Assembly: GCA_019694875.1 (NCBI GenBank)
Contig: JAIBBC010000002.1
Coordinates: 124,001 to 188,000, forward strand
DNA length: 64,000 bases
Direction: 5' to 3'
Source of the DNA: Cyclobacteriaceae bacterium
GTDB lineage: Bacteria > Bacteroidota > Bacteroidia > Cytophagales > Cyclobacteriaceae
Shown: positions 17,759 through 59,271 of the stretch, one piece after another
Layout: every line of letters starts with the position of its first letter
Numbering within the stretch: the first letter of the stretch is position 1
Notes under the pieces: generated by a model
What the model was told of the DNA's origin: nothing
Database searches by the model: none
What the model saw: only the letters and a program-made list of their open reading frames with translations
Made by a program: the position numbers and the translations under genes

Positions 17759-17761
17759 AGC

Positions 17762-31973: not shown

Positions 31974-32549
31974 TCAGAATAGCTCTCTCGCCAAATCATC
32001 GCTTATTACTTTGTACGAGTCGGCAACAAAGTTTGCTGGCTCAATATCCAAATATTCATAAGCGATTTCGGTCGCACAAAGGCTGCAGTCGCTTTTACTC
32101 AGATATTCTCTGAATGACGAGAATTCCCAAGCTTCAAGTTTCTTTGCAAGGCGTGCTTTTAGCGGATTTTGATGGATATAGTGAAATGCTATGGTGCAAT
32201 AATCATCTACACATTTTGCTTTCGTTTTTTGCTGAAACAGGTTTCCGGAAAGTTTTTCCTGTTTTTGAATGGCTTTCGTGTATGAACTCAATAGAAGTCT
32301 AATTCCCTCAGTCAGTGCATTAATTTCAATCGGAGTATGTTTAATGAGTTCTATTGTTTTCTCGTTTGCGCGAACTAGGAAATGAAAATGATTCGGCATC
32401 AAAGCCCAACTAAGAATGTCGCAGTTTGGAGAAATGTACCGCTCAACCTTGTTCAGAAAGAACCGATAGTTATTGGTGGAGAAGAATATTCTCTGTTTGT
32501 TATTACCACGATTGTAGATGTGATAAAATGATCCCTCGTTGAATTGCAT
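31974..32549 (-). CDS. REP-associated tyrosine transposase (RAYT, Y1/HUH family)
   Basis: Protein of 191 residues. It carries the HUH motif in ALMPNHFHFLVRA (about residues 49-61) and a candidate catalytic tyrosine in AFHYIHQNPLKARLAKK (about residues 120-136). Early residues GSFYHIYNRGNNKQRIF are the family N-terminus. RAYTs cut and rejoin single-stranded DNA at short REP hairpins and are thought to spread them. The gene is intact. Its REP-like hairpin lies 41 bp upstream of its start. Confidence 0.9.
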   Translation of the reverse strand: MQFNEGSFYHIYNRGNNKQRIFFSTNNYRFFLNKVERYISPNCDILSWALMPNHFHFLVRANEKTIELIKHTPIEINALTEGIRLLLSSYTKAIQKQEKLSGNLFQQKTKAKCVDDYCTIAFHYIHQNPLKARLAKKLEAWEFSSFREYLSKSDCSLCATEIAYEYLDIEPANFVADSYKVISDDLARELF

Positions 32550-43300: not shown

Positions 43301-44508
43301 TTCAGCGAAAGCACCGCGTTGTTGCTCAGGCCCTTGGCTGTATTCAACACCTTCGTTGACTGGTTGGTACGGATGATATTCAAACCCCCACCGCGGGTTC
43401 CGGTATACAGTGTTCCGTCAACATCTTCATAAACTGAGCGAACGATGCTATTGGAGAGGCCGCCCTTTTCGGTTGAACCGGAAGGCACGGAGTAAAATGG
43501 TTTAGGCAGGGTCAGGAATTTGAAAATTCCATCGCCATCGGTCCCTACCCAGAAAATGTCCTGTTTGGTTTCGGTAATCGCCAGAATTTTACGGTGTGCT
43601 TTTGAGAGCAGCGGAAAACGTGATGCCTGGTTCGAGGAAACAAACTGACCGTGTTCCAGCGTTAGTTTGAAAATGTCGCCCAGATCGGTGCCGATCCACA
43701 GTGCGGAGTTATCGCGGTTAACCGACAATGACGAAACGGGGAACGCTGAAAGGTGAAGCAACTGCGGAAGTTGTTCAATATCCGCCAGCGAATAGAGCAT
43801 GACACTTCCGTCATCGAAACTCAACGCCAGGTAGTACTTTCCCTGAATCGTAAAAAAATGATGTAGCCGCAGTTGCGCAGCGGGAATAAGCTGCTTGCTG
43901 AACACAACTTTATTATTTAGTAAACAAATCAACCGGGCATCGCTACCCAGCAGGTACATCAGTCCGTTTGCACTTCCGATGCCGGAAACTGCTTTCAGCC
44001 AATCGGCCGGGACGTCTTTTATTTCTACGGGCAGGAATGAGTCGCTGGCAGCATCGTATCGGTTAATACCCTGGCCAATCACGCTTACCCATAACGATGA
44101 GTCGGGCCCGAGACAGGCGCGCATGCTGTTTTCCAGCACAGGAATGTTTGAAAGATCGGAGAGGTAGCTTTTGAACGAGTCGGTGTCCCGGTTATACCGG
44201 TTGATTCCTTTGTGTGTAACGATCCAGAGATTACCGGCTTTATCTTCCAGCATATTTCGCACAATGTTGTTACTGATCGTGCCTGTACCGAAGGCTTCCG
44301 GCTTGTAAACTTTTATCGTGCTGCCATCATACCGGTTAAGGCCATCCCAGCTGCCGAACCAGGTATAATCATACTGGTCCATATATATAGAGGTGATGGC
44401 GCTGTTCGAAAGACCATCTTTTTTGCCGATATGCTGGTACGGCAAGGGGTTGAGCGTGTCCGAAACGGGCAAAGACAGGAAAACAGATAGTAGAAGCGCA
44501 GTACTCAT
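40390..44508 (-). CDS. Hybrid two-component sensor/regulator (HTCS) of the glycan locus
   Basis: Protein of 1372 residues from ATG 44508. Order: signal, periplasmic Reg_prop repeats forming two beta-propellers (about 25-690; blocks such as DGLSNSAI and ILWFGTRGSGVY), a Y_Y_Y beta-sandwich (about 725-775), a membrane helix (about 795-820), HisKA with HEFRTPLTL (about 855), HATPase with NLISNAIKYN, a receiver with ISDILMPGMDG (about 1120-1235) and a C-terminal AraC-type HTH (about 1275-1370). It senses an oligosaccharide in the periplasm and activates transcription directly. It is divergent from GH130, so the 44.7-59.3 kb genes are its likely targets. Confidence 0.95.
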   Translation of the reverse strand: MSTALLLSVFLSLPVSDTLNPLPYQHIGKKDGLSNSAITSIYMDQYDYTWFGSWDGLNRYDGSTIKVYKPEAFGTGTISNNIVRNMLEDKAGNLWIVTHKGINRYNRDTDSFKSYLSDLSNIPVLENSMRACLGPDSSLWVSVIGQGINRYDAASDSFLPVEIKDVPADWLKAVSGIGSANGLMYLLGSDARLICLLNNKVVFSKQLIPAAQLRLHHFFTIQGKYYLALSFDDGSVMLYSLADIEQLPQLLHLSAFPVSSLSVNRDNSALWIGTDLGDIFKLTLEHGQFVSSNQASRFPLLSKAHRKILAITETKQDIFWVGTDGDGIFKFLTLPKPFYSVPSGSTEKGGLSNSIVRSVYEDVDGTLYTGTRGGGLNIIRTNQSTKVLNTAKGLSNNAVLSLNKDKSGNLWIGVDGEGIDMLEAKTGKIFHFPRDFENATDLKFNFVYSICLDAYGTLWLGTSGNGVINLKVSKSKSGRYRLDHYKQITHSSEESSSINSNVVYSVVEETPNILWFGTRGSGVYRYNSLSGKIEEHFYTGSDKQRLSNDDVLSLFISDKEELWVGTSGGVNKISLQTKPYAISHYTQREGLPNNTIHAILQDANNMLWLSTNNGLVMLDPAKAAFKNFDTNDGLQNNEFTDGASFRSRLSEKLFFGGINGLDIIYPAKLDTISNFPRLTISEFQVHNVIITPRDSSQILKKHIDLAKEISLNYDQNFISFHFTTLNYWNKQRTEYAYFLENFDKAWNYIGQQSVVNLTNIPPGKYTLHINYTNENGTWNTTPKKIAIVVHPPFWKTNLAYAIYFLLLIGLQIGIVLIIRQRARTKRAAAINQFKMQQMKELNDYKLQFFTNVAHEFRTPLTLIFGPVTALIKKASNAWDRYQLKTIYGNSLRLQKLIEELIQFRKIESGKEKPQVTQVELVGFTQDIVETFIQHAVDHDVNLEFLPEPESLQAWIDPKKLEKILINLISNAIKYNVKGGHVDIILRESNQHAVFIIKDTGLGIAESDRNKIFESFYQNTTQHQEQQSFAMSTGIGLSLTKSLVELHRGEIRLESTPGKGSTFTITLPISHEAYVMFEQEKNYTLPVTNLEEKVQQEFGYINRAPEPVATGAEAIPDPERYSLLIVDDHDQILVLLQSILADKYKIFTARNGEEALTLLEDEKIDLVISDILMPGMDGLTLCRRIKDNIQTSHVPVILLTAKAEIEDRIEGLQMGADSYIPKPFHPDHLFIRIEKLIKNREQIRKRFENFAEVELGQMSTGISEKDDEFFVRITQCIERHLSESEFSADTIADEVGMSKASLYKKVKATVGLTPHGLIKQYRLRKAADLLKNSNMSVSEVIYETGFNSRSYFYKSFNEMFHCHPKDFGGAKAG

Positions 44509-44746
44509 AGCCACATTCCGCTCAAGGTAACTCTTACAAACCTATGCATTAAGAAAGAAGCAAACCCGGGAAAGTTGTCCTGCGGGTACTCCTTTTGTCC
44601 ACTGGATTCTCTTTTCCCTGAAAAAACGGAACCGGGAGAACTAAATAAACAAAATAGCGGACGGCAAAAGTGCCCGGATGGCCAAAATTGCAATCGATTT
44701 CGGGAAATATCTTCTGAAAACGATCAACGAACTGACAATCAGCCAG

Positions 44747-45793
44747 ATGGACATAGCAAAACGATTCAAAAACAACCCGATACTTCGACCTGCTGATCTT
44801 AAACCCAGCATGCCGGGGATGAAAATCGAGTGTTTGCTGAATCCGGGCGTGTTTTCCTATCAAAATAAGACCTGGTTATTGTTACGAGTGGCTGAAATGC
44901 CCGAGCAGCAGGAGGGCAAGATCAGCTTTCCTATATATAATGAGTCGGGCAGGATCGAAATCCTCACGTTTGATAAATCAGACCCTGCGCTGGATTTTAC
45001 GGATCCACGGGTGATCAATTATAAGGGAAAGGACTATTTAACCACCCTGTCGCACCTCCGGCTGGTTTGCAGTGATGGTGGCGAGAAGTTCTATGAACCC
45101 GAGGGTTACGCACCCATCTTCGGAAGCGACAAGCATGAAGCATACGGAATCGAGGATTGCCGGGTGATCAACATTGACGGCACCTACAACCTTACCTACA
45201 CACAAGTTTCTTCATACGGTGTGGGTGTTGGTCTGATCCAAACCAAAGACTGGAAGAACCTCGATCGTAAGGGGATGATCTTTTCACCTCACAATAAAGA
45301 CTGCGCGATCTTCGAAGAAAAGATCAACGGAAAATATTATGCGCTGCACCGGCCGAGTAGTCCGCAGCTGGGTGGTAACTACATCTGGATTGCCGAATCA
45401 CCTGATCTGTTGCATTGGGGAAATCATAAATGCATTGCGACTTCGCGCAAAGGCATGTGGGACAGTGCGCGCGTAGGTGCGGGTGCTGCACCGATTAAAA
45501 CTCCACATGGCTGGCTTGAAATCTACCATGGCGCCAACGAAAAGCATCGCTATTGTTTGGGTGCATTGCTGCTAGATTTGAATGATCCGTCAAAAGTGTT
45601 GGCCCGCAGTGAAGAACCTTTTGTTGAGCCGACTGCACAATATGAACTGACCGGATTTTTTGGAAACGTGGTTTTCACGAACGGTCACATTGTTGAAGGC
45701 GACACGGTTCGCATGTATTATGGCGCAAGCGATGAAGTGATTTGCATGGCCGAGTTATCGATTAAAGAAATATTATCAACCCTAAACCGCTGA
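44747..45793 (+). CDS. Glycoside hydrolase family 130 (mannoside phosphorylase/hydrolase)
   Basis: Protein of 348 residues from ATG 44747; a longer frame from 44678 adds 23 non-typical residues. It is a five-bladed beta-propeller enzyme of GH130 type, with LLNPGVFSYQNKTWLLLRV near the N-terminus, the catalytic-site GIEDCRV (family usually GxEDPR, so Cys replaces Pro), and YHGANEKHRYCLGALLLD. GH130 members act on beta-mannosides, by phosphorolysis or hydrolysis, and no signal peptide is seen, which favours a cytoplasmic enzyme on imported disaccharides. Linkage and mode are undetermined. It starts the operon, 2 bp before the MFS gene. Confidence 0.88.
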   Translation: MDIAKRFKNNPILRPADLKPSMPGMKIECLLNPGVFSYQNKTWLLLRVAEMPEQQEGKISFPIYNESGRIEILTFDKSDPALDFTDPRVINYKGKDYLTTLSHLRLVCSDGGEKFYEPEGYAPIFGSDKHEAYGIEDCRVINIDGTYNLTYTQVSSYGVGVGLIQTKDWKNLDRKGMIFSPHNKDCAIFEEKINGKYYALHRPSSPQLGGNYIWIAESPDLLHWGNHKCIATSRKGMWDSARVGAGAAPIKTPHGWLEIYHGANEKHRYCLGALLLDLNDPSKVLARSEEPFVEPTAQYELTGFFGNVVFTNGHIVEGDTVRMYYGASDEVICMAELSIKEILSTLNR

Positions 45794-45795: not shown

Positions 45796-47121
45796 ATGAT
45801 CCGCGATACATCCACAGACGTTGCAGAGAATTTTGAAGGATCGGCCAGCGGTACAGTAGCGCCAAAGCCTTCGTTCTGGAAAAAGCCTTTCAGCGAGTTT
45901 AATTATTTCATGACCATGCCGCGCGACATGCGCGTGCTGCTCATGACCAACCTGATTTACGCGTTCGTACTTCCGGTAATTGAAATTTTCGTGGGTGCGT
46001 ACATCATGCGCAGCTCAAACGATCCGAAGATTGTGGTGATCTATCAGCTTACTGTATATACGGGTATTCCGCTCACGTTTTTAATCAATGGTTATTTGTT
46101 AAGCCGTGTAAAAACTTCACACCTCTACAGTTTCGGAATGTTGCTGAGCGGTTTGTCGATGCTGGTGATGATGACGCTCGATACGCTTTCGGCTACGGGT
46201 GTTGGCGTGGCCGGTATCCTGATGGGCTGTTCGTTCGGATTTTTTTGGGCGAACCGCGATTACCTCGCGCTGGCCACAACCAACGATTCGAACAGGAATT
46301 ACTACTACGGCCTGGAAACCTTTTTCTATACGATGACGGCCATTCTTGTTCCGTTTGCCATCGGGGCATTTTTAGGTGCAGCAAGTGACGGGGCGTGGTT
46401 TGGCGGCAATTTTCAAACAGCTTACCAGATTGTAACAATTGTAGTGTTTGTTCTCACAATCCTCTCAAGCATCGTTATTCACCGCGGTCATTTTGTGAAA
46501 CCCGCACAGAAAGCATTTTTGTTTTTCCGGTTTCACTCACTTTGGCGCAAAATGCTTGTGTTGGCAGGTCTGAAAGGTCTTGCACAAGGTTATCTGGTTA
46601 CAGCACCTGCAATTCTTATTCTAACATTGGTTGGAAACGAAGGCTCTTTGGGTATGGTGCAGGCAGTAAGCGGTGTGATAACGGCCTTTATGCTTTACCT
46701 GTTGGGACGCTTTACATTGCCAAAACATCGCATTGCGATATTAACGGCAGGGTTAATTATCTTCTTAATCGGAACACTTACCAACGGCATTCTCTTTTCC
46801 GCCATTGGCGTAATTGTTTTTGTGTTGTGCAAGGTATTATTCCAGCCTTTGCATGATATAGCGTACTTTCCCATCCAAATGCGGGTGATCGATGTGGTGT
46901 CTAAAATTGAAAACAGGAATGAGTTTGCCTATATCTTCAATCACGAGTTTGGCCTTTACATAGGCCGTTTTATCGGACTTGGTCTTTTTATTGTCCTGGC
47001 AACGTACGTCTCCGAAACCTTTGCACTGAAGTATTCTTTGATTGTGATCGCGGTGTTGCAGATCGCATCCATTCCCTTGGCTAAACACATTGTTAACGAA
47101 GCGAATAAGTTGAGTAAATGA
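45796..47121 (+). CDS. MFS transporter, probably oligosaccharide importer
   Basis: Protein of 441 residues with about twelve membrane helices in two halves (first helix about 35-58, last about 405-430). The opening EFNYFMTMPRDMRVLLMTNLIYAFVLPVIEIFVGAY resembles transporters linked to sugar utilisation loci. It lies between GH130 (2 bp before) and the unrecognised lipoprotein (4-bp overlap), so it most likely carries the short mannosides that GH130 cleaves. Direct substrate residues cannot be named. Confidence 0.88.
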   Translation: MIRDTSTDVAENFEGSASGTVAPKPSFWKKPFSEFNYFMTMPRDMRVLLMTNLIYAFVLPVIEIFVGAYIMRSSNDPKIVVIYQLTVYTGIPLTFLINGYLLSRVKTSHLYSFGMLLSGLSMLVMMTLDTLSATGVGVAGILMGCSFGFFWANRDYLALATTNDSNRNYYYGLETFFYTMTAILVPFAIGAFLGAASDGAWFGGNFQTAYQIVTIVVFVLTILSSIVIHRGHFVKPAQKAFLFFRFHSLWRKMLVLAGLKGLAQGYLVTAPAILILTLVGNEGSLGMVQAVSGVITAFMLYLLGRFTLPKHRIAILTAGLIIFLIGTLTNGILFSAIGVIVFVLCKVLFQPLHDIAYFPIQMRVIDVVSKIENRNEFAYIFNHEFGLYIGRFIGLGLFIVLATYVSETFALKYSLIVIAVLQIASIPLAKHIVNEANKLSK

Positions 47122-48920
47122 TAACACGTAAGGTATATAACGTCATGATGAGTCGAGACAAATCCCATGGCACAAGGGGATGCTTGCGTCATTCTTCTTT
47201 CAGCATGACTGTCCTGATGCTGGTCTTGACGCTGGCTGGCTGCAAGCCTGAACCCGTTCAGATTGAACAGCTTTCCATCGACCGGGTAAAACTCATGCCC
47301 GATCAGCCTTCGCCTTACAAAATGCTCGACTGGAAGGAAAAAGCATTGAACTATGATCAGTACGTATTCAATAGAAACCTCAAAGGAGAATTTCTGCCAT
47401 TCCTCTGGCTCGACAGTACCAAACGCAATTTTAATCAAACAACATTCGGGTTATTCACCGTGGTGGGTGACGTGCGCCAGGGAGCAAAAGGCAACAAAGA
47501 ATTTCACGAAGCGCTTAACGCGATGGGTGCGATTATGGGAGCCGGCCTTGTGGGCATCGATAAAACCAATCAGGACGGAATGAACTATGTGAAGATGATC
47601 CAGAACTATTTCAATCGGGAAAACGGCTGGAACATCATGATGAACAACACGCATCCTTCTGTTGCACTGATGGGTGGAGGCTACGGCCGCGACTGGTGGT
47701 ATGATGTGGTGCCGAACATGCTTTTCTATGCAATCTGTGATTTGTATCCGGGTGTACCGCGTGCCGACAGCTTGCAACGAATAATTGCCGATCAATTCTA
47801 CAAAGCGGATTCAGCGCTGAATGGAAACTACGATTACTCATATTTTGATTACAGTAAGATGCAGGGATTTGTTAACCAGATTCCGAAGCAACAGGATGCG
47901 GCTGCCGGCCATGCCTTTGTGCTGTTAAGTGCGTACGAAAAATTTGGCGATGAAAAATATCTGGAAGGTGCCAGGTCTGCGATGGATGCATTCGCAAGTC
48001 AGAAGGAAAGTCGCTTTTATGAATTAATGATGCCGTTCGGTGCATTGGTAGGAGCGAAGCTGAATGCAGATCACGGAACACACTACGACATACAGAAATT
48101 TTTGAACTGGACGTTCGATGGCTGCAAAGCGGCTGATGGTCGCACGGGTTGGGGTGTTATTGCAGAGCGCTGGGGTGATTACGACATGTACGGTTTGCAA
48201 GGCAGCATTACCGATGGCGGAGGCTACGCATTTTTGATGAACTCTTTCGATCTGGCCTGGCCGCTTGTGCCCATGGTTAAATACGACAGCCGGTATGCCG
48301 TTACAATCGGCAAATGGATGTTAAATGTTTCGAATGCAGCCAGATTCTTTTATCCGTACGAAATGGACGATCAGCACCAGTGGCTTCCGGAGAAGAAGGA
48401 AATTACACGCAACGTGATCGCGTATGAAGGCATTCGCAAGGCGGACGATTATGGCAAACCAGCATTGAAAGGAATCACACCGGTTTCGTTAGGAGACGGT
48501 CCGAAATGGGTTAAAGGTCAGCCTGAAGAGAGCATGTACAGTTTGTACAGCTCTTCGCAGGTTGGAATTTTTGGCTCGATCATCAAAAAGACAAATGTTG
48601 AGAAAATTCTTCAGCTCGACTGCAACGTAACTGATTTCTACGGCAAAAATGAGTTCCCGACCTATCTCTACTACAATCCATACGATGAAGACAAAGAGGT
48701 AAGCTTTACCGGAAATGAAGGATCATTTGATCTGTACGATGCGTTGACGCAAACAGTTTTGAAGGAAGGTGCTGTATCGGGCGATATGTTCACCATTCCT
48801 GCAAAAGGCGCAAGACTTATTGTGGTTCTTCCACAGGGAAGCAAAATCGAAAAACAAAAAAATCAGGTGTCGACCGGAGGGAAAGTTATTATCTGGCTTC
48901 CGGATTCAACCAAACATTAA
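47118..48920 (+). CDS. Unrecognised glycan-locus lipoprotein (candidate glycan-active enzyme), paralogue of 54718-57819
   Basis: Protein of 600 residues, predicted lipoprotein (LVLTLAGCKPEP; an internal ATG at 47145 or 47148 could be the true start). It shows no family I know. It shares blocks over its whole mature length with the protein at 54718-57819: MPDxPxPYxMxDWK, GAxLVGxxKxNQ, GRDWWYDVVPN (residue ~191) against GGDWWYDVMPN, FYELMMPFGA against SYELQLPYGA, and NPYxEDK-V. Many W and aromatic positions are conserved, as is the helical pattern of an (alpha/alpha)6-type toroid. Conserved acids that could catalyse are Asp of DWWYD and Glu of YEL. Overlaps MFS by 4 bp. Confidence 0.75.
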   Translation: MITRKVYNVMMSRDKSHGTRGCLRHSSFSMTVLMLVLTLAGCKPEPVQIEQLSIDRVKLMPDQPSPYKMLDWKEKALNYDQYVFNRNLKGEFLPFLWLDSTKRNFNQTTFGLFTVVGDVRQGAKGNKEFHEALNAMGAIMGAGLVGIDKTNQDGMNYVKMIQNYFNRENGWNIMMNNTHPSVALMGGGYGRDWWYDVVPNMLFYAICDLYPGVPRADSLQRIIADQFYKADSALNGNYDYSYFDYSKMQGFVNQIPKQQDAAAGHAFVLLSAYEKFGDEKYLEGARSAMDAFASQKESRFYELMMPFGALVGAKLNADHGTHYDIQKFLNWTFDGCKAADGRTGWGVIAERWGDYDMYGLQGSITDGGGYAFLMNSFDLAWPLVPMVKYDSRYAVTIGKWMLNVSNAARFFYPYEMDDQHQWLPEKKEITRNVIAYEGIRKADDYGKPALKGITPVSLGDGPKWVKGQPEESMYSLYSSSQVGIFGSIIKKTNVEKILQLDCNVTDFYGKNEFPTYLYYNPYDEDKEVSFTGNEGSFDLYDALTQTVLKEGAVSGDMFTIPAKGARLIVVLPQGSKIEKQKNQVSTGGKVIIWLPDSTKH

Positions 48921-48943
48921 CCTAACTCACGAAACCGAATTTT

Positions 48944-51900
48944 ATGAAAAAATACTTTACACTGATTCTGGCAACGTTTGTACTCGCGGGGTATGCGCAG
49001 GCACAGACTACGCTGCGCGGAAAAGTATTGGACGATAAAGGCGAAGCGCTGATTGGTGTCAGTGTTTACCTGAAGGACTCCAATGTCGGGGGGATTACAG
49101 ATGTAGATGGACGCTACACACTTTCAGTTCCTGCGGGTGTTGAAATAAAGACGCTTGTTTTTTCATTCATTGGATACGTTACCCAGGAGGTTGCAGTTGA
49201 AGGTCGCGCGGGAGTTGATGTAACGATGGCTGAAGACACCCAGACGCTGGGTGAAGTTGTTATTACGGGTTACACCAGTGAACAACGCGAGAAGGTAACG
49301 GGCGCTGTTGCTACCGTAAAACCGGAAGCTTTGTTGCGCGTGCCGGTTCCAACGCTCGACCAGGCACTTCAGGGCCGTGCAGCAGGTGTGGTAGTTACCC
49401 AAAATACCGGTGCTCCGGGCGAAGGAGTAAGCATCCGAATCCGTGGAGTTGGTTCAATTAACAGTGGTAATTATCCTTTATATGTTATTGATGGTATCCC
49501 TGCGCTGAATGTTGACGGTATTTCGCTGAGCGATATGGCAAGCGTAACGGTGTTAAAAGATGCAAGTGCTGCCGCGATTTATGGTGCGCGTGCTGCAAAC
49601 GGAGTGGTGATTCTCACAACAAAATCCGGAAAGGGAAAAGCACCACAAATTGAAATCAAAACACAGTTTGGCGTGCAGTCGCCTTCGCGTTTGATCGACA
49701 TGGCCAACACGAAAGAGTATGTAAAAATTTACAACGAAGCTGCTGAAAATGACAACGTAGGAAAGTCCGGCATTTTCCTTCGTCCGCTGATTACCGAAGC
49801 CATGGCTGCAGATTTCTCGAACGTTGATTACATCAAGGAGATTATGCAGGATGCGGTTATTCAATCACACAGCATTACCGCGTCAGGTTCTTCGGGTAAA
49901 ACCAATTACCTCTTGTCAGTAAGTTATTTCGATCAGGAAGGTATTATTAAATCCAGTGCGTACAACAGGTTAACCGGGCGTGCAAATATCGAAACCGAAA
50001 TCAAACCGTGGCTCACAACCGGGATGAACCTGAACATGTCGCGGTCGAATCGCGATTTCATTCCAAGTTCAGGTGACGGAGCGGGTGGTAATGGTGGAAG
50101 TGTGATCCGTTACGCGTTCTTCCGCACACCGGCTATCCCGGTTTATGATGCCAACGGTGACTTTACCGACAAACCTGACCTGTACCGCTTTCTCGGAGAT
50201 GGATACAGTCCGGTAGGTATGCTGGCCTACAACCAGAATCACCGTATCTCCGACCAGCTTTTCGGAAAGTTCTACACACGCATTACGCTAATGCCCGGCC
50301 TGACATGGCTTACAAACTTTGGGTTTGACATTAATCATCAGAATCAAAGAAGATTCGACCGCAATTGGGGAACTGCAAACCGCATCAACAATCCGAACCG
50401 CCTGACGGTGTCAGGAGCAAACGGGAAATCGTTCACGATCAACAGCGTGTTTACGTACGAAAAATCATTCAACAAAAACAACTTCGTGATCACAGCCGGT
50501 GTCGAGTCGATCAAAAATAATCTGTACGCACAGTCGGCTACCGACAATAATTTCCCCGATCAGAAAAAGAGTCTCGTGTATCTCGGCAACGGCCAGGGAA
50601 TTAAAACTTCCAACGAAAGTGAAACCAGCAACTCGCTGCTTTCGGTATTCGGAAAAGTGGGATATGATTATGACGGCCGCTATCTCGCCTCATTAACGTA
50701 TCGCAGAGATGGTTCATCGCGATTCGGCCCTGATAACCGCTGGGGAAATTTTTATGCCGGTTCACTGGGCTGGCAATTGAAGAGTGAATCATTCCTTGAA
50801 AATGTTGACTGGATTGATGGCTTGCTCGTTCGTGCGGCTTACGGAAGTATCGGTAATCAGGAAATTCCTGACTTCCCGTATCTGGAAGGTGTAGGCAATA
50901 ACTACAACTATCCGTTCGGTAACGTTCAAAGCAATGGTTTTGCAATCAATCAGCTTGGTAATACAAAAGTTAAATGGGAATCATCCAACCAGTTCAATGC
51001 CGGATTTGATTTCGAAATCCTTCATGGAGAAATTTATTTAACGTTCGACTATTTCAACAAAGTAACGTCCGACCTGCTCGTGAGTCAGCCGATTCCGCCT
51101 TCAGCGGGTGAAGCAGGTGCTCCGATTGTGAACAACGGAAAAATTCTCAACCGCGGTATTGAAGTCGCTATCAGTCATGTCAAAACAATCAACGACTTCC
51201 ACTATGAGGTCAATGCAAACTTTGCAACTCTTCACAATGAAGTGCTGGCTGTTAACCCCGTTATTCAGGGTGGTGCCGTTGGTTCGGATCGGCTCACGTT
51301 AGTTGAAAAAGGTTATCCGGTTTCTTCTTTCTACCTGTATGAGATGGAGGGCATTTTTCAGGATGCTGCTGACATTTTCACCCATGCTAACCAGGGCAAC
51401 GGCATTCAGCCTGGTGATGTAAAATATAAAGATCAGGATGGTGACGGATTGATCACTGCAAAAGACAGAGTACATGTAGGAAGTCCGATTCCTGATTTTA
51501 CCGCTGCACTTAACATCAACCTGCGCTATAAAAACTGGGACATGTCGATTTTCTTCCAGGGAGCGTATGGTCAGGAGATATTCTCGGTATTGAACCGCGA
51601 TATCGAAGGGTTCTATCGTCCGTTCAATGTTACGCAACGGTACTACGATGAACACTGGACCGGCCCCGGAACCAGCAACTCGCAACCGCGTGCGTCATGG
51701 GATGCATCCGGAAACAACACCAAGTTTTCCACGCGTTTCCTGGAGAACGGTTCGTATACCCGTCTGAAAAATCTTCAGATCGGATATTCATTACCGAATT
51801 CTTTCCTCCAACGCTACGGCTTTTCATCGTGCCGGGTTTACGTATCGGGCGCCAATCTGTTAACCTTTACCAAGTACCAGGGCGGTATGGACCCGGAGAT

Positions 51901-52009
51901 GACGGTGAGCGACAACGCGCTGAACGAAGGCGAACGTTCGGCTGGTATGGATTGGGGTACGTATCCGTCTGCACGCTCCTATAACGTAGGTCTTACGCTA
52001 ACTTTTTAA
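48944..52009 (+). CDS. SusC/RagA-family TonB-dependent outer-membrane receptor
   Basis: Protein of 1021 residues with signal ending AQAQ. The order is a carboxypeptidase-regulatory-like domain (TTLRGKVLDDKGEALIGVSVYLKDS, about 22-105), the TonB box-like TLGEVVITGY, the plug (LQGRAAGVVVTQNTGAPGEGVSIRIRGVGSINSGNYPLYVIDG, about 140-190) and a 22-strand barrel ending in ARSYNVGLTLTF. It imports oligosaccharides with SusD as lid, using TonB energy. It directly follows the unrecognised lipoprotein (23 bp) and shares one base with SusD (TAATG). Confidence 0.97.
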   Translation: MKKYFTLILATFVLAGYAQAQTTLRGKVLDDKGEALIGVSVYLKDSNVGGITDVDGRYTLSVPAGVEIKTLVFSFIGYVTQEVAVEGRAGVDVTMAEDTQTLGEVVITGYTSEQREKVTGAVATVKPEALLRVPVPTLDQALQGRAAGVVVTQNTGAPGEGVSIRIRGVGSINSGNYPLYVIDGIPALNVDGISLSDMASVTVLKDASAAAIYGARAANGVVILTTKSGKGKAPQIEIKTQFGVQSPSRLIDMANTKEYVKIYNEAAENDNVGKSGIFLRPLITEAMAADFSNVDYIKEIMQDAVIQSHSITASGSSGKTNYLLSVSYFDQEGIIKSSAYNRLTGRANIETEIKPWLTTGMNLNMSRSNRDFIPSSGDGAGGNGGSVIRYAFFRTPAIPVYDANGDFTDKPDLYRFLGDGYSPVGMLAYNQNHRISDQLFGKFYTRITLMPGLTWLTNFGFDINHQNQRRFDRNWGTANRINNPNRLTVSGANGKSFTINSVFTYEKSFNKNNFVITAGVESIKNNLYAQSATDNNFPDQKKSLVYLGNGQGIKTSNESETSNSLLSVFGKVGYDYDGRYLASLTYRRDGSSRFGPDNRWGNFYAGSLGWQLKSESFLENVDWIDGLLVRAAYGSIGNQEIPDFPYLEGVGNNYNYPFGNVQSNGFAINQLGNTKVKWESSNQFNAGFDFEILHGEIYLTFDYFNKVTSDLLVSQPIPPSAGEAGAPIVNNGKILNRGIEVAISHVKTINDFHYEVNANFATLHNEVLAVNPVIQGGAVGSDRLTLVEKGYPVSSFYLYEMEGIFQDAADIFTHANQGNGIQPGDVKYKDQDGDGLITAKDRVHVGSPIPDFTAALNINLRYKNWDMSIFFQGAYGQEIFSVLNRDIEGFYRPFNVTQRYYDEHWTGPGTSNSQPRASWDASGNNTKFSTRFLENGSYTRLKNLQIGYSLPNSFLQRYGFSSCRVYVSGANLLTFTKYQGGMDPEMTVSDNALNEGERSAGMDWGTYPSARSYNVGLTLTF

Positions 52010-53508
52010 TGACGACAGCTATGAAAAACGCATATAAAATAATTTTCTTTTTAGCGCTGATCGGAATCACTTCAGCGTGCGCTGATTTCCTGGACGAAAC
52101 ACCGAAAGGAAGGTATACAACGGAAAATTTCTATAAGACTGGAGAACACGCACTGTTGGCGATTACCGGAGTTTACAACAAGGCTTCATTCGTTTCAACG
52201 AACAATGCACTGTGGGTGTTTGGAGATGTAGCGTCTGATGATGCAATAAAAGGTGGTGCGGCAGGTGATCAAAGTGAAATCCAGTTCCTTGAAGAATTTA
52301 ACTACTCAGCCAACAACGGATTCCTGCTGAAGATCTGGAGCCAATACTACGAGGGCATCACACGTGCGAATTACCTGCTGTACTATGCGGATAACATCGA
52401 CATGGATGCCGATTTGAAAGCTAGAATATTGGGTGAGGCCAAGTTCATGCGGGCGTTCTTCTACTTCAACCTGGTGAATATTTTCGGTGAGATTCCTTTA
52501 AAAACTCAACCTCCGTTGAATTCCGGTCTGATCAATGTCGGAAAATCTTCGGTAGATGATGTATATGCTCAGATTGAAGAAGATTTGCTAGATGCAACCG
52601 AAGTATTGGAAGTTGAATATTCAGGGGCGGATGTAGGCCGCGCGACACAAGGCGCTGCGTGGGGGTTACTGGCTAAAGCAAGATTGTACCAGGAAAACTG
52701 GCAGGGAGCTCTTGACGCAATTCAGTCGTTGGAAGATTTGGGGATCTACAGCTTGCAGTCTGTTTATAAAAACAATTTCATTGATTCAACGCAGAACAAC
52801 AGCGAGTCAATATTTGAGATTCAGCACGAAAGCGGGCAAATACCTAAACTCGGCAGTCATTTGAACCAGTGGTTTGGTGCACCTGACAACAACGGTTATG
52901 CGTTTGATGTACCGCTTCAGGATTTTGTAGATGAATTCGAAGTAACTCCGGGTGATGTAGTAGATCCCCGTCTGGATTATACCGTTGGTCAGGCTGGTCA
53001 GAACTGGATTAATGGCGAACCATTCGATCCGACCTGGTCTGCTACCGGTTATTTGCAGAAGAAACATGTTCAGCCCTTGCGTGAAGAACCGATCATTGGC
53101 GATGCAAGCCTGAATTATGTGTACATGCGCTATGCCGATATCCTGCTGATGAAGGCAGAGGCATTGAATGAACTGAATCGTGTGCCGGAAGCCATCGTTC
53201 CGTTGAATGAAGTTCGCAAACGTGCACGTGAAAGTTATTTGTATGACTTGGACTTGCCGGGTGCAGGATCAGTTCCGTCCAACCTGTTGCCGGATGTTCC
53301 TGCTACTTCGCAAGCTTCGGTGCGCAATGCCATTCGTCACGAACGCAGAGTTGAGCTTGGCTTCGAGTTTCATCGCTTTTTCGATTTGATGCGCTACGGG
53401 GCGGCAACTGCGGAGGCTGCCTTATCCGATACCGATTTTGATTATGCAACCGAACGTTACTTCCCGATTCCTCAGGCGGAGGTTGACGCAAACACAGCTA
53501 TTGACTAG
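52009..53508 (+). CDS. SusD/RagB-family surface glycan-binding lipoprotein
   Basis: Protein of 499 residues. Signal lipobox ITSAC; alternative start at 52021. It has the RagB/SusD order FLDETPKGRYTTENFYKT, then helical TPR-like bundles (MRAFFYFNLVNIFGEIPL, QGAAWGLLAKARLYQ) and the C-terminal RHERRVELGFEFHRFFDLMRYG and ERYFPIPQAEVDAN. It binds the glycan at the cell surface and closes the SusC channel. Overlaps SusC by one base. Confidence 0.97.
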   Translation: MTTAMKNAYKIIFFLALIGITSACADFLDETPKGRYTTENFYKTGEHALLAITGVYNKASFVSTNNALWVFGDVASDDAIKGGAAGDQSEIQFLEEFNYSANNGFLLKIWSQYYEGITRANYLLYYADNIDMDADLKARILGEAKFMRAFFYFNLVNIFGEIPLKTQPPLNSGLINVGKSSVDDVYAQIEEDLLDATEVLEVEYSGADVGRATQGAAWGLLAKARLYQENWQGALDAIQSLEDLGIYSLQSVYKNNFIDSTQNNSESIFEIQHESGQIPKLGSHLNQWFGAPDNNGYAFDVPLQDFVDEFEVTPGDVVDPRLDYTVGQAGQNWINGEPFDPTWSATGYLQKKHVQPLREEPIIGDASLNYVYMRYADILLMKAEALNELNRVPEAIVPLNEVRKRARESYLYDLDLPGAGSVPSNLLPDVPATSQASVRNAIRHERRVELGFEFHRFFDLMRYGAATAEAALSDTDFDYATERYFPIPQAEVDANTAID

Positions 53509-53562
53509 TAACCTTAAACATAAATAATAAACAATAAACGATTAAACTTTAATAATTAAACT

Positions 53563-54636
53563 ATGAAAACGAAGATCAAATTATTGCTCTCCTTCGCGGT
53601 CATCCTCAGTGTGGGATTCATGGCCGCTTGTTCGGACGATGATGGCGGAAAAAAGGGCGCTGACAAAGAAACGCTTTTGGCAAGTATCGCTGAAGCGCAA
53701 GATCTGCTTGACAACACAGAAGAGGGAACTTCTGATGGCCAGTACCTGATGGGTTCTCAAACTGCATTAACTGCAGCCGTAACAGCAGCCGCTGCTGTTG
53801 CCGCAGATGATAATGCAACACAAACCGAGGTGAACAATGCCAACGTAAACCTGCAGGCAGCAATCACGACCTACGAAGGTAAAATTATTACTCCGATCGC
53901 TCCTGCGAATCTGATGGCTCACTGGAAGTTTGACGAAGGAACCGGTACTACAGCAAACGATGCATCTGACAACAACCATGACGGTACCTTCAAGACAGGT
54001 CACGCGTTCTGGGGTGCTGGAAATCCTGCGTGGTCAACCGACCGTTACGGCAATGCAAACAAAGCTATCTACTTCAATTCCGGTGCAAACATCGAAGTTC
54101 CGTACAGCACGCAACTGAACCCTGAAACAATGACTGTGTCATTGTGGATGAAGCAGGATGTAAACAATCCTATTCTGAACAATCAATACATGGTGGCTGT
54201 GAACCGCTGGAATGGCTGGAAACTTAACATGCAAGATAGCCCTAAGGCTTTCATGACCGTAAAAGCTGATGTAGCCGGAAGCCCTGATCCAGCTTACTAC
54301 GACAGAGACAACGCTGATCCTGTACTTACACAAGGCGACTGGTATCACATTGTTGTTACTTTCGGTGGTGGTCATATGATCTTCTATGTGAACGGGGTTA
54401 AGGTGAAAGACTGGGATAACACTCCGGGAACGGGTATTGATATTTCAGCAAATCCTATCAACCTGACCATCGGCCAGGATTTGCCAACCAACAAGTACAC
54501 TGCAACAGAAGGCGACTTCTATGTTAACTGGGGCGGATACTTCAAAGGTGTTTTGGATGAAATCCGTATTTATAACACGGTGCTTTCAGAAACTCAGGTT
54601 ACTACATTGTACAATATTGAGAAACCTGTTGAATAA
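53563..54636 (+). CDS. LamG-domain surface lipoprotein (SusE/F-position glycan binder)
   Basis: Protein of 357 residues with lipobox MAACSDDD. Residues about 27-108 are an Ala-rich helical region with ATQTEVNNANVNLQAAITTYEGKI, like a FIVAR helical repeat. Residues about 115-350 are a LamG/concanavalin-like domain (LMAHWKFDEGTGTTANDASDNNHDGTF, EGDFYVNWGGYFKGVLDEIRIYN). The position after susD matches surface glycan-binding proteins, so it probably anchors the target polymer. The LamG end LDEIRIYN recurs in the 54718-57819 protein. Confidence 0.88.
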   Translation: MKTKIKLLLSFAVILSVGFMAACSDDDGGKKGADKETLLASIAEAQDLLDNTEEGTSDGQYLMGSQTALTAAVTAAAAVAADDNATQTEVNNANVNLQAAITTYEGKIITPIAPANLMAHWKFDEGTGTTANDASDNNHDGTFKTGHAFWGAGNPAWSTDRYGNANKAIYFNSGANIEVPYSTQLNPETMTVSLWMKQDVNNPILNNQYMVAVNRWNGWKLNMQDSPKAFMTVKADVAGSPDPAYYDRDNADPVLTQGDWYHIVVTFGGGHMIFYVNGVKVKDWDNTPGTGIDISANPINLTIGQDLPTNKYTATEGDFYVNWGGYFKGVLDEIRIYNTVLSETQVTTLYNIEKPVE

Positions 54637-54661
54637 CGATTTTTTTGGTTAGCTGTTGTGC

Positions 54662-54691
54662 ATCACCCTGGAGGGAAACTTCCGGGGTGAT
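54662..54691 (+). terminator. Hairpin between the LamG gene and the T9SS enzyme gene
   Basis: ATCACCC (54662-54668) with GGGTGAT (54685-54691) plus inner GGA/TCC pairs form a stem of 13 bp with two G-T pairs and a GAAA tetraloop, then TTTTAAATTTT. It may terminate some transcripts and lower expression of the downstream gene. Confidence 0.6.
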
Positions 54692-54717
54692 TGCATTTTA
54701 AATTTTCTGCATTGATC

Positions 54718-57700
54718 ATGAAGTACTTTTTTTTAGTTGTATTCTGTTGTATCGGCTTATCGGGAATGGCACAAACCGGTCAGCTTACCATCAACCGCAT
54801 TTCACAAATGCCCGATTTACCGGCACCGTATGTTATGCGCGACTGGAAAGATGTAGCTGTTAAATACGATCAGTTTATTTACGTTACTCCCCACACGGGC
54901 GATTACTTTCCGTTGATCGGAACACGAACGCCTGTCAATTATCCATCCATTACACCCATCGCGCTGGATACCTACATCGGCTCACCGAGCACTACACAGG
55001 CCGAGGGGATTAATATTATTCCTTCCATGGTTGGTGCAACGCTGGTAGGTGTTAATAAAGCAAACCAGGGTGGAATTAACTGGGTGGAGAAAACAAAAGA
55101 CTTCTTTAACAAAGCCAATGGTCAGAACGTATACCTCAATGGAACCAACACCGGAAGCGGTGGTGACTGGTGGTATGATGTAATGCCCAACATTTTCTTT
55201 TATCAGCTTTACAGTCAGTACCCATCCATCAGCGACTATCCGGCACAGTTTGTTTCGGTAGCTGACCGGTGGCTTGCGGCTGTAAATGCCATGGGCGGAA
55301 GCACCGCACCGTGGAGCGTGCCGAATATGAATTACCGCGCCTGGAATCTCGCCACCATGACGGGTAAAACAGATGGTGTTAAGGAACCCGAAGCAGCAGG
55401 CGGAATAGGTTGGTTGTTATACCACGCCTACCTGGAAACAGGTGAAAAAAAATATTTAAATGGAGCGCAGCAGTCGATTGAGTTTCTGTTGTCATTATCA
55501 TCAAACCCTTCGTACGAGTTGCAGTTGCCATACGGTGCGTTTGTTGCTGCAAAAATGAATGCTGAACAAGGCACCTCATACGATGTTCCGAAAATTCTGA
55601 ATTGGTGCTTCGACCGCGGCCCCTTGCGCGGCTGGGGCGCTATCAAAGGTCAATGGGACGGGAAAGATGTAAGCGGCCTGATTGGCGAAGCAAATGATGG
55701 CGGCAACGACTATGCATTTGCATTGAACGGTTTTCAGCAGGCTGGGGCGCTGGTTCCTTTAGTGAAGTACGACAAGCGTTTTGCGCGCGATCTGGCCAAG
55801 TGGGCATTGAACTTGGCGAATGCAAGCAGGTTCTTTTACAGGCCTTATCCGAGCAGTCAGGATGATTTTACCTGGAGCTCAACTTACGACCCGGATGCGG
55901 TGATAGCATATGAAGCGCTGAAAGAGCATGACAGTCATAATGGCAACCTGCCTTTGCGCGCAACCGGTGATGCTAAACGCAACAGCTGGGCTGCAACCAA
56001 CCTGGGTTTATATGGATCATCAAGTGTTGGGTATCTCGCTGCTGTTATCAATACAACAGATGTTGAAGGCATCTTGCAATTGGATGTAAACAAAACAGAT
56101 TTTTTTCTTGAGAATGCATACCCAAGCTATGCATTGTACAATCCATACACGGAAGATAAGGTGGTTACGCTAACGCTTCCTTCCGGAACACATGACATTT
56201 ATGATGCACTGTCGGAAACAACTATTAAAACTTCCGTTAGCGGATCAACAACGATAACCATCAAAGCAGATGAAGCAATTTTATTGACCTATGTTCCGGC
56301 CGGAACTTCGCTTGTTGCTGAAAATGGAAAGTTGCTGGCGAACGATGCTGTGATAGACTATCACTACGGCTATGACTTTACACCCGACCTGCGTATAAAA
56401 GCCCTGGGTGTTGCCAACACGAATGTGGAGTTTGGTCAGGCCGTGCCCGTTTACCTGACGGTTGAAAATGCTGCCGGAGGTGCAAGCTATTCCTGGCGTG
56501 ATGATCAGGGATCGGAGGGAACATTTGCTGCTCCTGCCTTCACCTGGACAGCCCCCGCCATTGCCGGTGAGAATGTATTGGTGGTAGAAGTAACATCAGG
56601 CGGAAAAACCGTTACAGACAGTATAGTTTTTAACGTGGTTGAAAGTGTTCCGGAGCCTCCCGTTGTATCTGCAATCACCACAGAAAGCCTTTGGCAGGCC
56701 GCAGGCAGTCAGGTTGTTTTTACGTGCGCAGTTACCGATGACGAAGACGCAATCAATGCGTTGCAATTCGAGTGGACGATCACCGGTGGAACGTTAGTCT
56801 CGCAGAGCGGTGCAACCATGACATGGCAGGCTCCTTCAACCGAAGGTATTTATCTTATTACATGCGAAGTTACCGACCAGGATGGTTTAACGGCTGAAAA
56901 AACGATTCCAGTTCTTGTTAAGAAAACGGGTGGCGAAGAAACTCCTTTGTTCGCGTATTATCCGCTTGACGGAGATACAAAAGATTATAGCGGGAATAAC
57001 CGGGATGCAACCATGCAGGGTGTTGATGAAACAACTGATGCAAGGGGCGAGGATGGCAAAGCGTATTTATTTAACTCTGGTTCTGACCTGATCGCGGTAC
57101 CGAATTCATCACCCCTGAATTTCCAGGATAAGATTACATTGTCATTTTGGGTGAAGGCTGCGTCCATCCCGGAAGAAACGTTTATTCTGTCACACGGAAG
57201 CTGGGAACAACGTTGGAAAGTTTCGATTACACCAACCGGTCGTTTACGCTGGACTGTTAAAACAAATTCGGCCACGCGGGATCTCGACAGTTCCTTTCCG
57301 CTTACGCTGAATCACTTCTATCATTTTACGGTGGTGTATTCCGGATATTCGATGGAGCTGTATGCCGATGGCGAGCTGGATGCATTTAGCCAGCATTCCG
57401 GATCAATGGGAACCACATCCAATTCACTCACATTCGGACGCAAAGATTCCGGTGAATCAAATTATTTTTTGCGTGGCGTTCTGGATGAAGTGCGGATTTA
57501 TAATGCAATCGTCCCGCCTGATGAGATCACCACGCTGAAAGACACGTGGCATGAAGTTGTTACCGGTGTTGAGAGAGATATCCGAAAGATCGAAGTGTAT
57601 CCTAATCCGGCTACACACGCATTTTTTCTGCACAGGGCCGGCCCGATTAATACGACCTCATTGCAGTTGTATGATGTGAACGGGCGACAAGTCCCGTTTG

Positions 57701-57819
57701 AAGTGAGTGATAGTCAAACCTATCCAAAGATTACCATTTCCGATGGAACAACGGGTCTGGTTATCCTCCGGATGAAGTCTGGCAAAAACATGATCTATCG
57801 AAAAATAATCCTGAAATAA
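54718..57819 (+). CDS. Large T9SS-exported unrecognised enzyme candidate with Ig-like and LamG domains
   Basis: Protein of 1033 residues from ATG 54718 (signal ends GMAQ). Residues about 22-545 are the same unrecognised domain as the 47118-48920 lipoprotein, including GGDWWYDVMPN (about 149-159) and SYELQLPYGA. Then two Ig/PKD-like beta domains (about 570-740), a LamG domain (about 741-937; YYPLDGDTKDYSGNNRDATM and GVLDEVRIYN) and a C-terminal type IX secretion sorting domain (about 955-1033; IEVYPNPATHAFFL, GLVILRMKSGKNMIYRKIIL). It should be displayed on the cell surface. Combining an unknown domain with two binding modules suggests a polymer-degrading enzyme. Confidence 0.82.
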   Translation: MKYFFLVVFCCIGLSGMAQTGQLTINRISQMPDLPAPYVMRDWKDVAVKYDQFIYVTPHTGDYFPLIGTRTPVNYPSITPIALDTYIGSPSTTQAEGINIIPSMVGATLVGVNKANQGGINWVEKTKDFFNKANGQNVYLNGTNTGSGGDWWYDVMPNIFFYQLYSQYPSISDYPAQFVSVADRWLAAVNAMGGSTAPWSVPNMNYRAWNLATMTGKTDGVKEPEAAGGIGWLLYHAYLETGEKKYLNGAQQSIEFLLSLSSNPSYELQLPYGAFVAAKMNAEQGTSYDVPKILNWCFDRGPLRGWGAIKGQWDGKDVSGLIGEANDGGNDYAFALNGFQQAGALVPLVKYDKRFARDLAKWALNLANASRFFYRPYPSSQDDFTWSSTYDPDAVIAYEALKEHDSHNGNLPLRATGDAKRNSWAATNLGLYGSSSVGYLAAVINTTDVEGILQLDVNKTDFFLENAYPSYALYNPYTEDKVVTLTLPSGTHDIYDALSETTIKTSVSGSTTITIKADEAILLTYVPAGTSLVAENGKLLANDAVIDYHYGYDFTPDLRIKALGVANTNVEFGQAVPVYLTVENAAGGASYSWRDDQGSEGTFAAPAFTWTAPAIAGENVLVVEVTSGGKTVTDSIVFNVVESVPEPPVVSAITTESLWQAAGSQVVFTCAVTDDEDAINALQFEWTITGGTLVSQSGATMTWQAPSTEGIYLITCEVTDQDGLTAEKTIPVLVKKTGGEETPLFAYYPLDGDTKDYSGNNRDATMQGVDETTDARGEDGKAYLFNSGSDLIAVPNSSPLNFQDKITLSFWVKAASIPEETFILSHGSWEQRWKVSITPTGRLRWTVKTNSATRDLDSSFPLTLNHFYHFTVVYSGYSMELYADGELDAFSQHSGSMGTTSNSLTFGRKDSGESNYFLRGVLDEVRIYNAIVPPDEITTLKDTWHEVVTGVERDIRKIEVYPNPATHAFFLHRAGPINTTSLQLYDVNGRQVPFEVSDSQTYPKITISDGTTGLVILRMKSGKNMIYRKIILK

Positions 57820-57874: not shown

Positions 57875-58753
57875 ATGAAAGATTCTATTGTTCTGGGTAT
57901 CGACATTGGCGGATCACATCTTACGGCTGCGCTGGTAGACGAGACAACCCGGAAGTTTGTGCCTGATTCATACTTACGGGTTCGGGTAAATTCAAAAGGT
58001 ACTGCCGAAGAAATACTCGGTATCTGGACGAAAGCAATCGAGGATACTTTTCAGGCGCACCCGGTTGCAAACAAACGAATCGGAATTGCCATGCCCGGCC
58101 CGTTCGACTATGCAAACGGCATCTCACTGATTAAAGGACTTGATAAGTACGAGGCGCTGTATAAACTCAATGTGAAACAAATTCTTTCACAGCGCCTGAG
58201 TATCTCGCCCAATGCAATTTTGATGATGAACGATGCTGCGTGTTTCCTGCGCGGAGAAGTTTACTATGGAGCAGCAAAGGGTTATCAGGATGTGATTGGC
58301 ATTACGCTGGGAACCGGTACAGGAAGTGCCATGCATCATCACGGAGTTACGCATGATGCCAATCTGGGTCCTGCGCCTTTTATGGATAGTATTGCAGATG
58401 AATATTTCTCCACACGCTGGTTTGTAAAGCGTTACCAGGAGGTGAGTGGTCAGTCAGTGAAAGATGTGAAAGCGCTGGCTGATTTATATCCGTCCGATGC
58501 AAATGTGAAAGAGATTTTTAAAGAGTTTGTGAAAAACCTTGCGGTGTTCCTGGAAGGTTTTGTGAATGCAGAAAAGCCCCAGGTGATTGTGATGGGTGGC
58601 AATATTGCACAATGTTCATCGCTGTTTCTGAACGATTTAACTGCGCAGCTTGCGGCAAGAAATATTACGATCCCGATTGTACGTGCAGAACTGGGAGAGG
58701 AGGCAGCCATATTGGGTGCAGCAAGTTTATTTGAATCGAAAACAATATTGTAA
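57875..58753 (+). CDS. ROK-family sugar kinase (hexokinase type, mannokinase candidate)
   Basis: Protein of 292 residues. ATP-binding LGIDIGGSHLTAALVD (about residues 4-19), the catalytic-site LMMNDAACFLRGE (Asp about 118) and GITLGTGTGSAM (about 144-155) are present. The CxCGxxGC zinc motif of typical ROK kinases is absent: after the GTGTG block the sequence runs NLGPAPFMDSIADEYFSTRWF with no cysteine. It probably phosphorylates free hexose, most plausibly mannose given the M6P isomerase 5 bp downstream. ROK relatives can also be repressors, but no HTH is present. Confidence 0.85.
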   Translation: MKDSIVLGIDIGGSHLTAALVDETTRKFVPDSYLRVRVNSKGTAEEILGIWTKAIEDTFQAHPVANKRIGIAMPGPFDYANGISLIKGLDKYEALYKLNVKQILSQRLSISPNAILMMNDAACFLRGEVYYGAAKGYQDVIGITLGTGTGSAMHHHGVTHDANLGPAPFMDSIADEYFSTRWFVKRYQEVSGQSVKDVKALADLYPSDANVKEIFKEFVKNLAVFLEGFVNAEKPQVIVMGGNIAQCSSLFLNDLTAQLAARNITIPIVRAELGEEAAILGAASLFESKTIL

Positions 58754-58758: not shown

Positions 58759-59271
58759 ATGGAATTTCAATTGAAGAGCAACGAACGCACTGCCGTGTTC
58801 GAAGAGATCGGCAAGTATCTCGCGGGATTAAACCTGAAAGTCGTATCGCATGATTTCACGCGGCCGTGGGGCGGCTTCTTTGTGATTGATGAATCGCAGG
58901 CGAAACAATTCGCGGAATTATTTTTTCCGGGCGTGGATCTCTCCACATTGCGCATCAGCGGAAAGCTGAGCCCGAAAATTCTGGTTGTGGAACCGAAGAA
59001 ACGCTTGTCGTGGCAGTATCATTACAGGCGCGCTGAAATCTGGCGTGCGGTGTCAGGCAAAGTGGGAGTTGTTACAAGCATGACCGATGAAGAGAAAGAT
59101 ACTACTCATCTCAATCCGGGTGACGAAATCAGGCTTGCGCAGGGTCAGCGTCACCGTTTGATGGGCTTGAACGAATGGGGAGTTGTTGCTGAAATCTGGC
59201 AACACACCGATGCTCAGAATCCATCCGATGAAAGCGACATCGTTCGTCTGCAGGATGATTTCGGAAGATAA
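58759..59271 (+). CDS. Cupin mannose-6-phosphate isomerase-like protein
   Basis: Protein of 170 residues resembling the C-terminal cupin of type II mannose-6-phosphate isomerase: RPWGGFFVIDE, PKKRLSWQYHYRRAEIWRAVSGK, GDEIRLAQGQRHRLMGL and ESDIVRLQDDFGR. The metal ligands would be the His pair in QYHYRRAE and in QRHRLM. It interconverts mannose-6-P and fructose-6-P and so fits downstream of a mannokinase. It ends the glycan locus and is convergent with the YfhO gene. The N-terminal pyrophosphorylase half of bifunctional enzymes is absent. Confidence 0.85.
   Translation: MEFQLKSNERTAVFEEIGKYLAGLNLKVVSHDFTRPWGGFFVIDESQAKQFAELFFPGVDLSTLRISGKLSPKILVVEPKKRLSWQYHYRRAEIWRAVSGKVGVVTSMTDEEKDTTHLNPGDEIRLAQGQRHRLMGLNEWGVVAEIWQHTDAQNPSDESDIVRLQDDFGR

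Follow-up and report, generated by a model that had tools for sequence, protein, structure and literature searches.

The years 2014-2015 saw the description of phosphorylases and mannosidases of glycoside hydrolase (GH) family 130 that act on beta-1,2-mannosides (PMC4264767, PMC4599007), and natural beta-1,2-mannosides are reported from the O-antigens of several bacteria and the beta-1,2-mannan of Leishmania, among others (PMC4264767). Among the matches listed from the open-access literature, none describes an enzyme depolymerising beta-1,2-mannan, i.e. an endo-beta-1,2-mannanase. A second relevant group are the GH76 endo-alpha-1,6-mannanases (BT_3782, BT3792, BT2949, Aman6), (alpha/alpha)6 barrel proteins with members in mannan loci of Bacteroidota. 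The GH130 enzyme BT3780 and the GH76 enzyme BT3782 of Bacteroides thetaiotaomicron have close locus tags, and we take them to be neighbours. Here we describe two proteins, A and B, encoded in a 64,000-nucleotide stretch of a Cyclobacteriaceae bacterium genome (GCA_019694875.1, contig JAIBBC010000002.1, positions 124,001 to 188,000, forward strand), called the window below. As with BT3780 and BT3782, a barrel protein of mannanase fold is found there together with a GH130 of the beta-1,2-mannose type; however, the barrel protein of that pair belongs to GH76, whereas A and B form a sequence family separate from BT3782, whose usual GH130 partner is of the Uhgb_MS type, unlike BT3780. We lean towards the view that A and B represent an unclassified (alpha/alpha)-barrel family of exported glycoside hydrolases which would cut a beta-1,2-mannosyl-containing glycan and feed the SusC/SusD pair, the major facilitator superfamily (MFS) protein and the GH130 of the same locus. 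The two proteins and their main parts are as follows.

47118..48920, + strand: protein A, lipoprotein member of the family, 600 amino acids (paralogy with B, AlphaFold2 model, fold, lipobox-like start)
47253..48893, + strand: modelled domain of A, residues 46-592, predicted (alpha/alpha) barrel followed by a C-terminal beta domain (AlphaFold2)
47355..47357, + strand: Asp80 of A, invariant (58/58 homologues)
47508..47510, + strand: Glu131 of A, invariant (58/58), catalytic candidate
48021..48023, + strand: Glu302 of A, in the YEL motif, invariant (58/58), catalytic candidate
48426..48428, + strand: Glu437 of A, invariant (58/58), catalytic candidate
48495..48497, + strand: Asp460 of A, invariant (58/58), catalytic candidate
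54718..57819, + strand: protein B, family member exported by the type IX secretion system (T9SS), 1033 amino acids (paralogy with A, LamG, Por_Secre_tail)
54766..56352, + strand: family domain of B, residues 17-545 (alignments)

An initial annotation, made from the DNA letters alone, had proposed two paralogous open reading frames (ORFs) here, one for a lipoprotein and one for a T9SS-exported protein with LamG, and both were found in place. BLASTP aligned residues 32-591 of A with residues 7-546 of B at 206/574 identical positions (36%, 345 bits, E 3e-111), so that the likeness covers nearly all of A and lies far beyond chance. The blocks which the annotation had seen as shared (MPDxPxPYxMxDWK, DWWYDVxPN and YEL) all fall within the alignment. 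The export signals agree with it as well: A carries a lipobox-like LAGC whose last residue is Cys42, and B, starting at ATG 54718 (with an alternative in-frame TTG nine codons upstream), has a hydrophobic, signal-like N-terminus in a crude hydropathy scan. B also bears a T9SS sorting tail (PF18962, E 3e-9, 37.4 bits against a cut-off of 27; TIGR04183, 33.7 against 23), a LamG domain (E 1e-25) and PKD-like matches below cut-off, all of them C-terminal to the family domain. Beyond A and B, no further copy of the family was found in the source genome.

The AlphaFold2 model of A (residues 46-592) reached a pLDDT of 93.1 and a pTM of 0.94, and it displays the (alpha/alpha)6 barrel that characterises GH76, a fold type already foreseen in the annotation. 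When the model was compared with 1000 chains by VIA-align, the nearest folds were GH76 enzymes, including BT_3782, at 8-13% identity in the GH76 rows. Because B is homologous to A, it should have the same barrel. The shared domain gave no match over cut-off in Pfam, NCBIfam or PHROGs, in line with the annotation, which had recognised no known family; a strong match to a family of non-glycan function, which it had allowed for, appeared neither in the Pfam and NCBIfam searches nor in the structure comparison. A PDB sequence search with A returned nothing up to E 10; the family profile brought up no more than a DnaJ chain and some LanC-like chains, none better than E 0.14 and none a credible relative. 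Phage records contained no match to the family. Scanned singly against Pfam, 38 members gave weak matches only, mainly to C5-epim_C (26/38, best E 0.00068); in A this match spans 31 residues, and it is also present in a GH9 protein. C5-epim_C and LANC_like were rejected as identities, being weak matches on a short helical stretch.

Assignment to GH76 was rejected too. The fold agrees, yet PF03663 was matched neither by A or B at E 1 nor among the families found for the 38 members at E 0.1, and hhalign of the family against a three-sequence GH76 alignment (L081, which has an internal stop, being excluded) gave a probability of 2.4%. Moreover, catalysis by GH76 is attributed to a pair of adjoining acidic residues, D143/E144 in BT2949 (PMC4321491), whereas no adjacent invariant acidic residues occur across 58 homologues of A. 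The unsaturated glucuronyl hydrolases of GH88 fared no better (PF07470 unmatched in A and B at E 1, hhalign 5.4%), nor did GH125 (PF06824 unmatched in A and B, hhalign 0.2%), and the source genome yielded no match to GH76, GH88 or GH125. The family is conserved, exported and unclassified by Pfam and NCBIfam, and it very probably consists of glycoside hydrolases. As such it would be a new family among the glycanases of polysaccharide utilization loci, built on a fold already known, rather than a system of a new type.

In the alignment of the 58 homologues (A numbering), D80, E131, E302, E437 and D460 are identical in every row, and position 260 is D or E in all 58. The counterparts in B are D51, E96, E267, E399 and D418. 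The annotation had put forward the Glu of YEL and the Asp of DWWYD as key residues. The former, E302, is indeed invariant, whereas the latter is present in 56/58 and replaced by Thr in L008_B8 and L068_A5. E131, E302, E437, D460 and D80 are therefore better catalytic candidates than the DWWYD Asp, as far as conservation can tell. No conserved His column was found across the 58 homologues. Since AGE epimerases have conserved catalytic histidines, a set of several invariant carboxylates that lacks an invariant His is more in keeping with a hydrolase than with an epimerase.

The genes around A and B are listed below.

40390..44514, - strand: hybrid two-component regulator (HTCS), divergent from the operon (Pfam Reg_prop, Y_Y_Y, HisKA, HATPase_c, Response_reg, HTH_18)
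44678..45793, + strand: GH130 beta-mannoside phosphorylase, Uhgb_MS-like (PF04041, E 4e-49)
45796..47121, + strand: MFS-like inner-membrane transporter (PF07690, E 8e-6, 25.5 bits, below the cut-off of 33.4)
48944..52009, + strand: SusC-like TonB-dependent transporter (PF07715, PF13715, PF00593)
52009..53508, + strand: SusD-like glycan-binding lipoprotein (PF07980, PF14322)
53563..54636, + strand: LamG lipoprotein (PF13385, E 1e-18; FIVAR below cut-off)
57875..58753, + strand: ROK-family sugar kinase (PF00480, E 6e-24)
58759..59271, + strand: mannose-6-phosphate isomerase-like cupin (PF01050, E 3e-10)

The order is thus HTCS (opposite strand), GH130, MFS, A, SusC, SusD, LamG lipoprotein, B, ROK and cupin, so that A and B flank susC-susD-LamG, as the annotation had it. 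Neighbouring susC and susD, a regulator and glycan enzymes make this a SusC/SusD-type polysaccharide utilization locus. The MFS-like protein is probably an oligosaccharide transporter, the LamG lipoprotein is likely a surface glycan-binding protein, and the ROK kinase is, by context, a mannokinase. The GH130 ORF begins 23 codons before its alignment with Uhgb_MS (codon 24, MDIAKR), and 44747 may be the true start.

The type of GH130 points to the linkage. The window enzyme has its best match in Uhgb_MS (567 bits), followed by Lin0857 (328 bits), with beta-1,4-mannooligosaccharide phosphorylases far behind at 107-111 bits; the NCBIfam equivalogs for beta-1,2-mannobiose phosphorylase stayed below cut-off (NF050092, 435.5 against 550 bits; NF052550, 208.8 against 450 bits). 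In PMC8950772, Uhgb_MS is presented as a mixed-linkage mannoside synthase that makes beta-1,2-mannobiose and Lin0857 as a beta-1,2-mannobiose phosphorylase. In PMC4599007, Lys199 of BT3780 is given as the beta-1,2 determinant, common to Teth514_1788/1789 and not shared by beta-1,4 enzymes. K207 of the window GH130 lies in this column, which holds K in 51/51 GH130 proteins from the loci studied here; counting residues in 5A7V identified Lys199 with the lysine of CKSG, at the offset of 4 that also applies to Glu141-Asp142, and K207 was linked to it via the GH130 of locus L068, aligned with CKSG. As six of the 51 come from places without A (L074-L079), the lysine speaks for the GH130 type and not for the A/B family. 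By sequence and specificity lysine the window GH130 groups with Uhgb_MS, Lin0857 and Teth514_1788/1789, although the latter two are described as part of a GDP-mannose gene cluster that also encodes ABC transporter components and a GH5 (PMC4264767), whereas the window enzyme lies in a SusC/SusD locus with the A/B family. The mannose-type GH130 locus of the initial annotation is therefore retained, but narrowed from generic mannan to beta-1,2-mannosides. Outside the window, on contig 4 of the source genome (317696-319845), a GlcNAc 2-epimerase (AGE)-family gene adjoins a second GH130. An AGE gene beside a GH130 is the usual arrangement for beta-1,4-mannan or mannobiose, and this separate pair fits a different linkage at the window locus.

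A search for related loci found the family in Bacteroides, Pedobacter, Cyclobacteriaceae, Chryseolinea and other Bacteroidota; in 22/22 loci GH130 and then MFS lie upstream of A, with an ORF on the opposite strand intervening between MFS and A in the L006 gene calls. Pedobacter nutrimenti is one cultured species that carries A as well as GH130. When 395 Bacteroidota genomes were searched with the family profile, 19 yielded a full-length member (E < 1e-180). Seven more had weak partial matches (E 3e-5 to 9e-4); the four that were scanned comprised one GH9 and one GH127 over cut-off, the rest being C5-epim_C/GH88 below cut-off, and such matches, reflecting generic barrel likeness, were not counted as members. 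GH130 (E 1e-30 or better) occurs in 87/395 genomes, and all 19 family genomes are among these (Fisher 6e-14, a guide only, as the genomes are related). The converse fails: 12 of 20 genomes having a GH130 of at least 62% identity contain no full-length member (4 of the 12 have a weak match). Likewise, at the six places L074-L079, five of them in genomes without a full-length member and the sixth being the site of a second GH130 in G316, neither an MFS homologue nor a family member was found (6/6); the GH130 at these places is Uhgb_MS-like.

The annotation had considered that homologues might never occur with SusC/SusD or GH130, and the contrary was found. GH130 is present within the fetched stretch in 38/40 loci and SusC with SusD in 30/40; with the GC-rich L065 and the window added, the figures are 40/42 and 31/42 (SusC and SusD being present in the window and not in L065). 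The two misses for GH130 are L059, whose family gene is near the contig start, and L069, an 11.6 kb contig, while the GH130 counted in L064 and L070 is a divergent form, identified through its BLAST match to that of L066. This count leaves out L053 (genome of L022), L023, L024, L025 and L051 (the window itself), L052/L071 (a 65-residue B fragment only) and L026-L043 (short versions of loci represented as L053-L070). GH130, MFS and A are consecutive in 28/40 loci, and GH130 and MFS adjoin in 29/29 A-type loci. In L022 (Bacteroides ihuae) and L058 the fetched stretch holds only HTCS, SusC, SusD, GH130, MFS and A (the L058 stretch starts inside the HTCS gene); among the part of the neighbours that was scanned, the next genes encode a glycosyltransferase, a lysylphosphatidylglycerol-synthase-type protein and a chaperonin in L022 and a tRNA synthetase in L058. 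In these two stretches A is the only exported candidate for making the substrate of GH130. Median identity to the window (L001, L014 and L020 left out) is 58.6% for A (26 loci), 49.4% for SusD (25), 43.6% for LamG (18), 60.4% for MFS and 70.2% for GH130; A is thus more conserved than SusD and LamG, and nearer to MFS and GH130.

Other roles for the family have to be weighed against cleavage of beta-1,2-mannosyl bonds. The enzymes might be glycoside hydrolases acting on another bond of a mixed polymer, e.g. an alpha-mannosidic one as in GH76, and thereby free beta-1,2-mannose-capped oligosaccharides for GH130. That GH76 enzymes are the nearest folds of A speaks for this idea, as do the use of alpha-1,2-mannobiose as acceptor by Uhgb_MS (PMC8950772), the GH13 genes of some loci and two GH92 genes of the source genome that lie outside the window. 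However, Pfam scans covering part of the neighbours recognised no alpha-mannosidase in the loci, and in the L022 and L058 stretches the alpha-linked remainder would be left without an enzyme; we therefore hold this alternative to be rather unlikely.

It is improbable that the family members are non-catalytic surface proteins which merely capture the glycan. Such a function would suit proteins that are exported and mostly encoded near SusC/SusD, and the LamG domain of B, but it is hard to reconcile with an enzyme-type barrel bearing five invariant carboxylates and with A being better conserved than SusD and LamG, and it would leave L022 and L058 without any depolymerase. An epimerase, isomerase or lyase on the same barrel, working on sugars before uptake, is a very improbable identity: although the barrel is common to these enzymes, A and B differ from AGE and cellobiose 2-epimerases in being exported and in having no invariant His, hhalign probabilities are low for AGE (PF07221, 4.4%) as well as for GH88, and the C5-epim_C match is the short one mentioned above.

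If A and B do hydrolyse a beta-1,2-mannosyl-containing glycan, presumably in endo mode, the pathway might run as follows. B, secreted by T9SS, would cut the glycan at the cell surface, and A, as a lipoprotein, would cut it further on the outer membrane or in the periplasm. SusC/SusD would import the fragments, the MFS protein would carry small oligosaccharides into the cytoplasm, and there GH130 would use phosphate to split the terminal beta-1,2-mannosidic bond, releasing alpha-mannose-1-phosphate. Free mannose would then enter glycolysis, in the source genome, by way of the ROK kinase and the isomerase. The A/B family is a specific, testable candidate for a beta-1,2-mannan depolymerase. If this is true, it would provide a new CAZy family, a tool for cutting beta-1,2-mannosides and a substrate clue for loci that are so far unassigned.

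An IQ-TREE tree of the 58 rows, rooted at the midpoint for drawing only, separates an A clade (31 rows, support 100/99), a B clade (25 rows, 100/100) and the pair L008_B8 and L068_A5, here called subfamily C (100/100). Visual inspection shows local groupings common to the A and B clades, such as that of the window with L001 and L014, a hint that A and B arose by an old duplication. Subfamily C has TFWYE in place of DWWYD. In L068 (201-10280), C occurs with SusC/SusD, a ROK kinase, an MFS transporter and a GH130 hydrolase of the BT3780 type, matching 3QC2 (BACOVA_03624, 561 bits) and 5A7V (BT3780, 549 bits); in L008 (C at 16372-18117) it stands alongside A and the usual GH130. Tentatively, and with some doubt prevailing, one may go further and regard A, B and C as three subfamilies of a new GH family, the missing extracellular beta-1,2-mannan depolymerases, which together with GH130 would complete a partly plasmid-borne pathway of Bacteroidota for a glycan motif that is known to occur in Candida, in trypanosomatids and in O-antigens of bacteria.

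A different arrangement, the version of more distant Bacteroidota, occurs in the ABC-transporter-type loci L061, L063, L064, L066 and L067 (and, with no recognised ABC gene, L070), where a B-type member is found with a GH2 and a divergent GH130. A second GH130, of 300 amino acids, is present in L061, L063, L066 and L067, and all six loci except L061 have a GH94-like gene, whose product looks exported. In a crude hydropathy scan signal-like starts were seen in the B and GH94-like proteins and not in GH2 or GH130, so the family member would be one of two exported enzymes in these loci.

Two operons are on plasmids, both typed as non-mobilizable: pPP5 of Persicobacter psychrovividus (L072, 12614-27086, including B) and pAT2 of Aureibacter tunicatorum (L073, 8592-22360, up to LamG, where the record start cuts it). 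Both plasmid-borne A copies are annotated as 'hypothetical protein'. Apart from the window, only L001, L014, L019 and L068 showed a recognisable ROK gene in the fetched stretch, and it is thus either optional for the locus or sited further off. A GH13 alpha-amylase-type gene adjoins A or lies between LamG and B in L015 (17530-19152), L056 (10410-12041), L057 (6752-8377) and L072 (22361-23995), identified by Pfam in L056 and L057 and by BLAST in L015 and L072. The natural polymer may therefore carry other sugars, with a hint of alpha-glucose. Elsewhere in the window, a 191-residue ORF on the - strand (31974-32549) seems to resemble a REP-associated tyrosine transposase.

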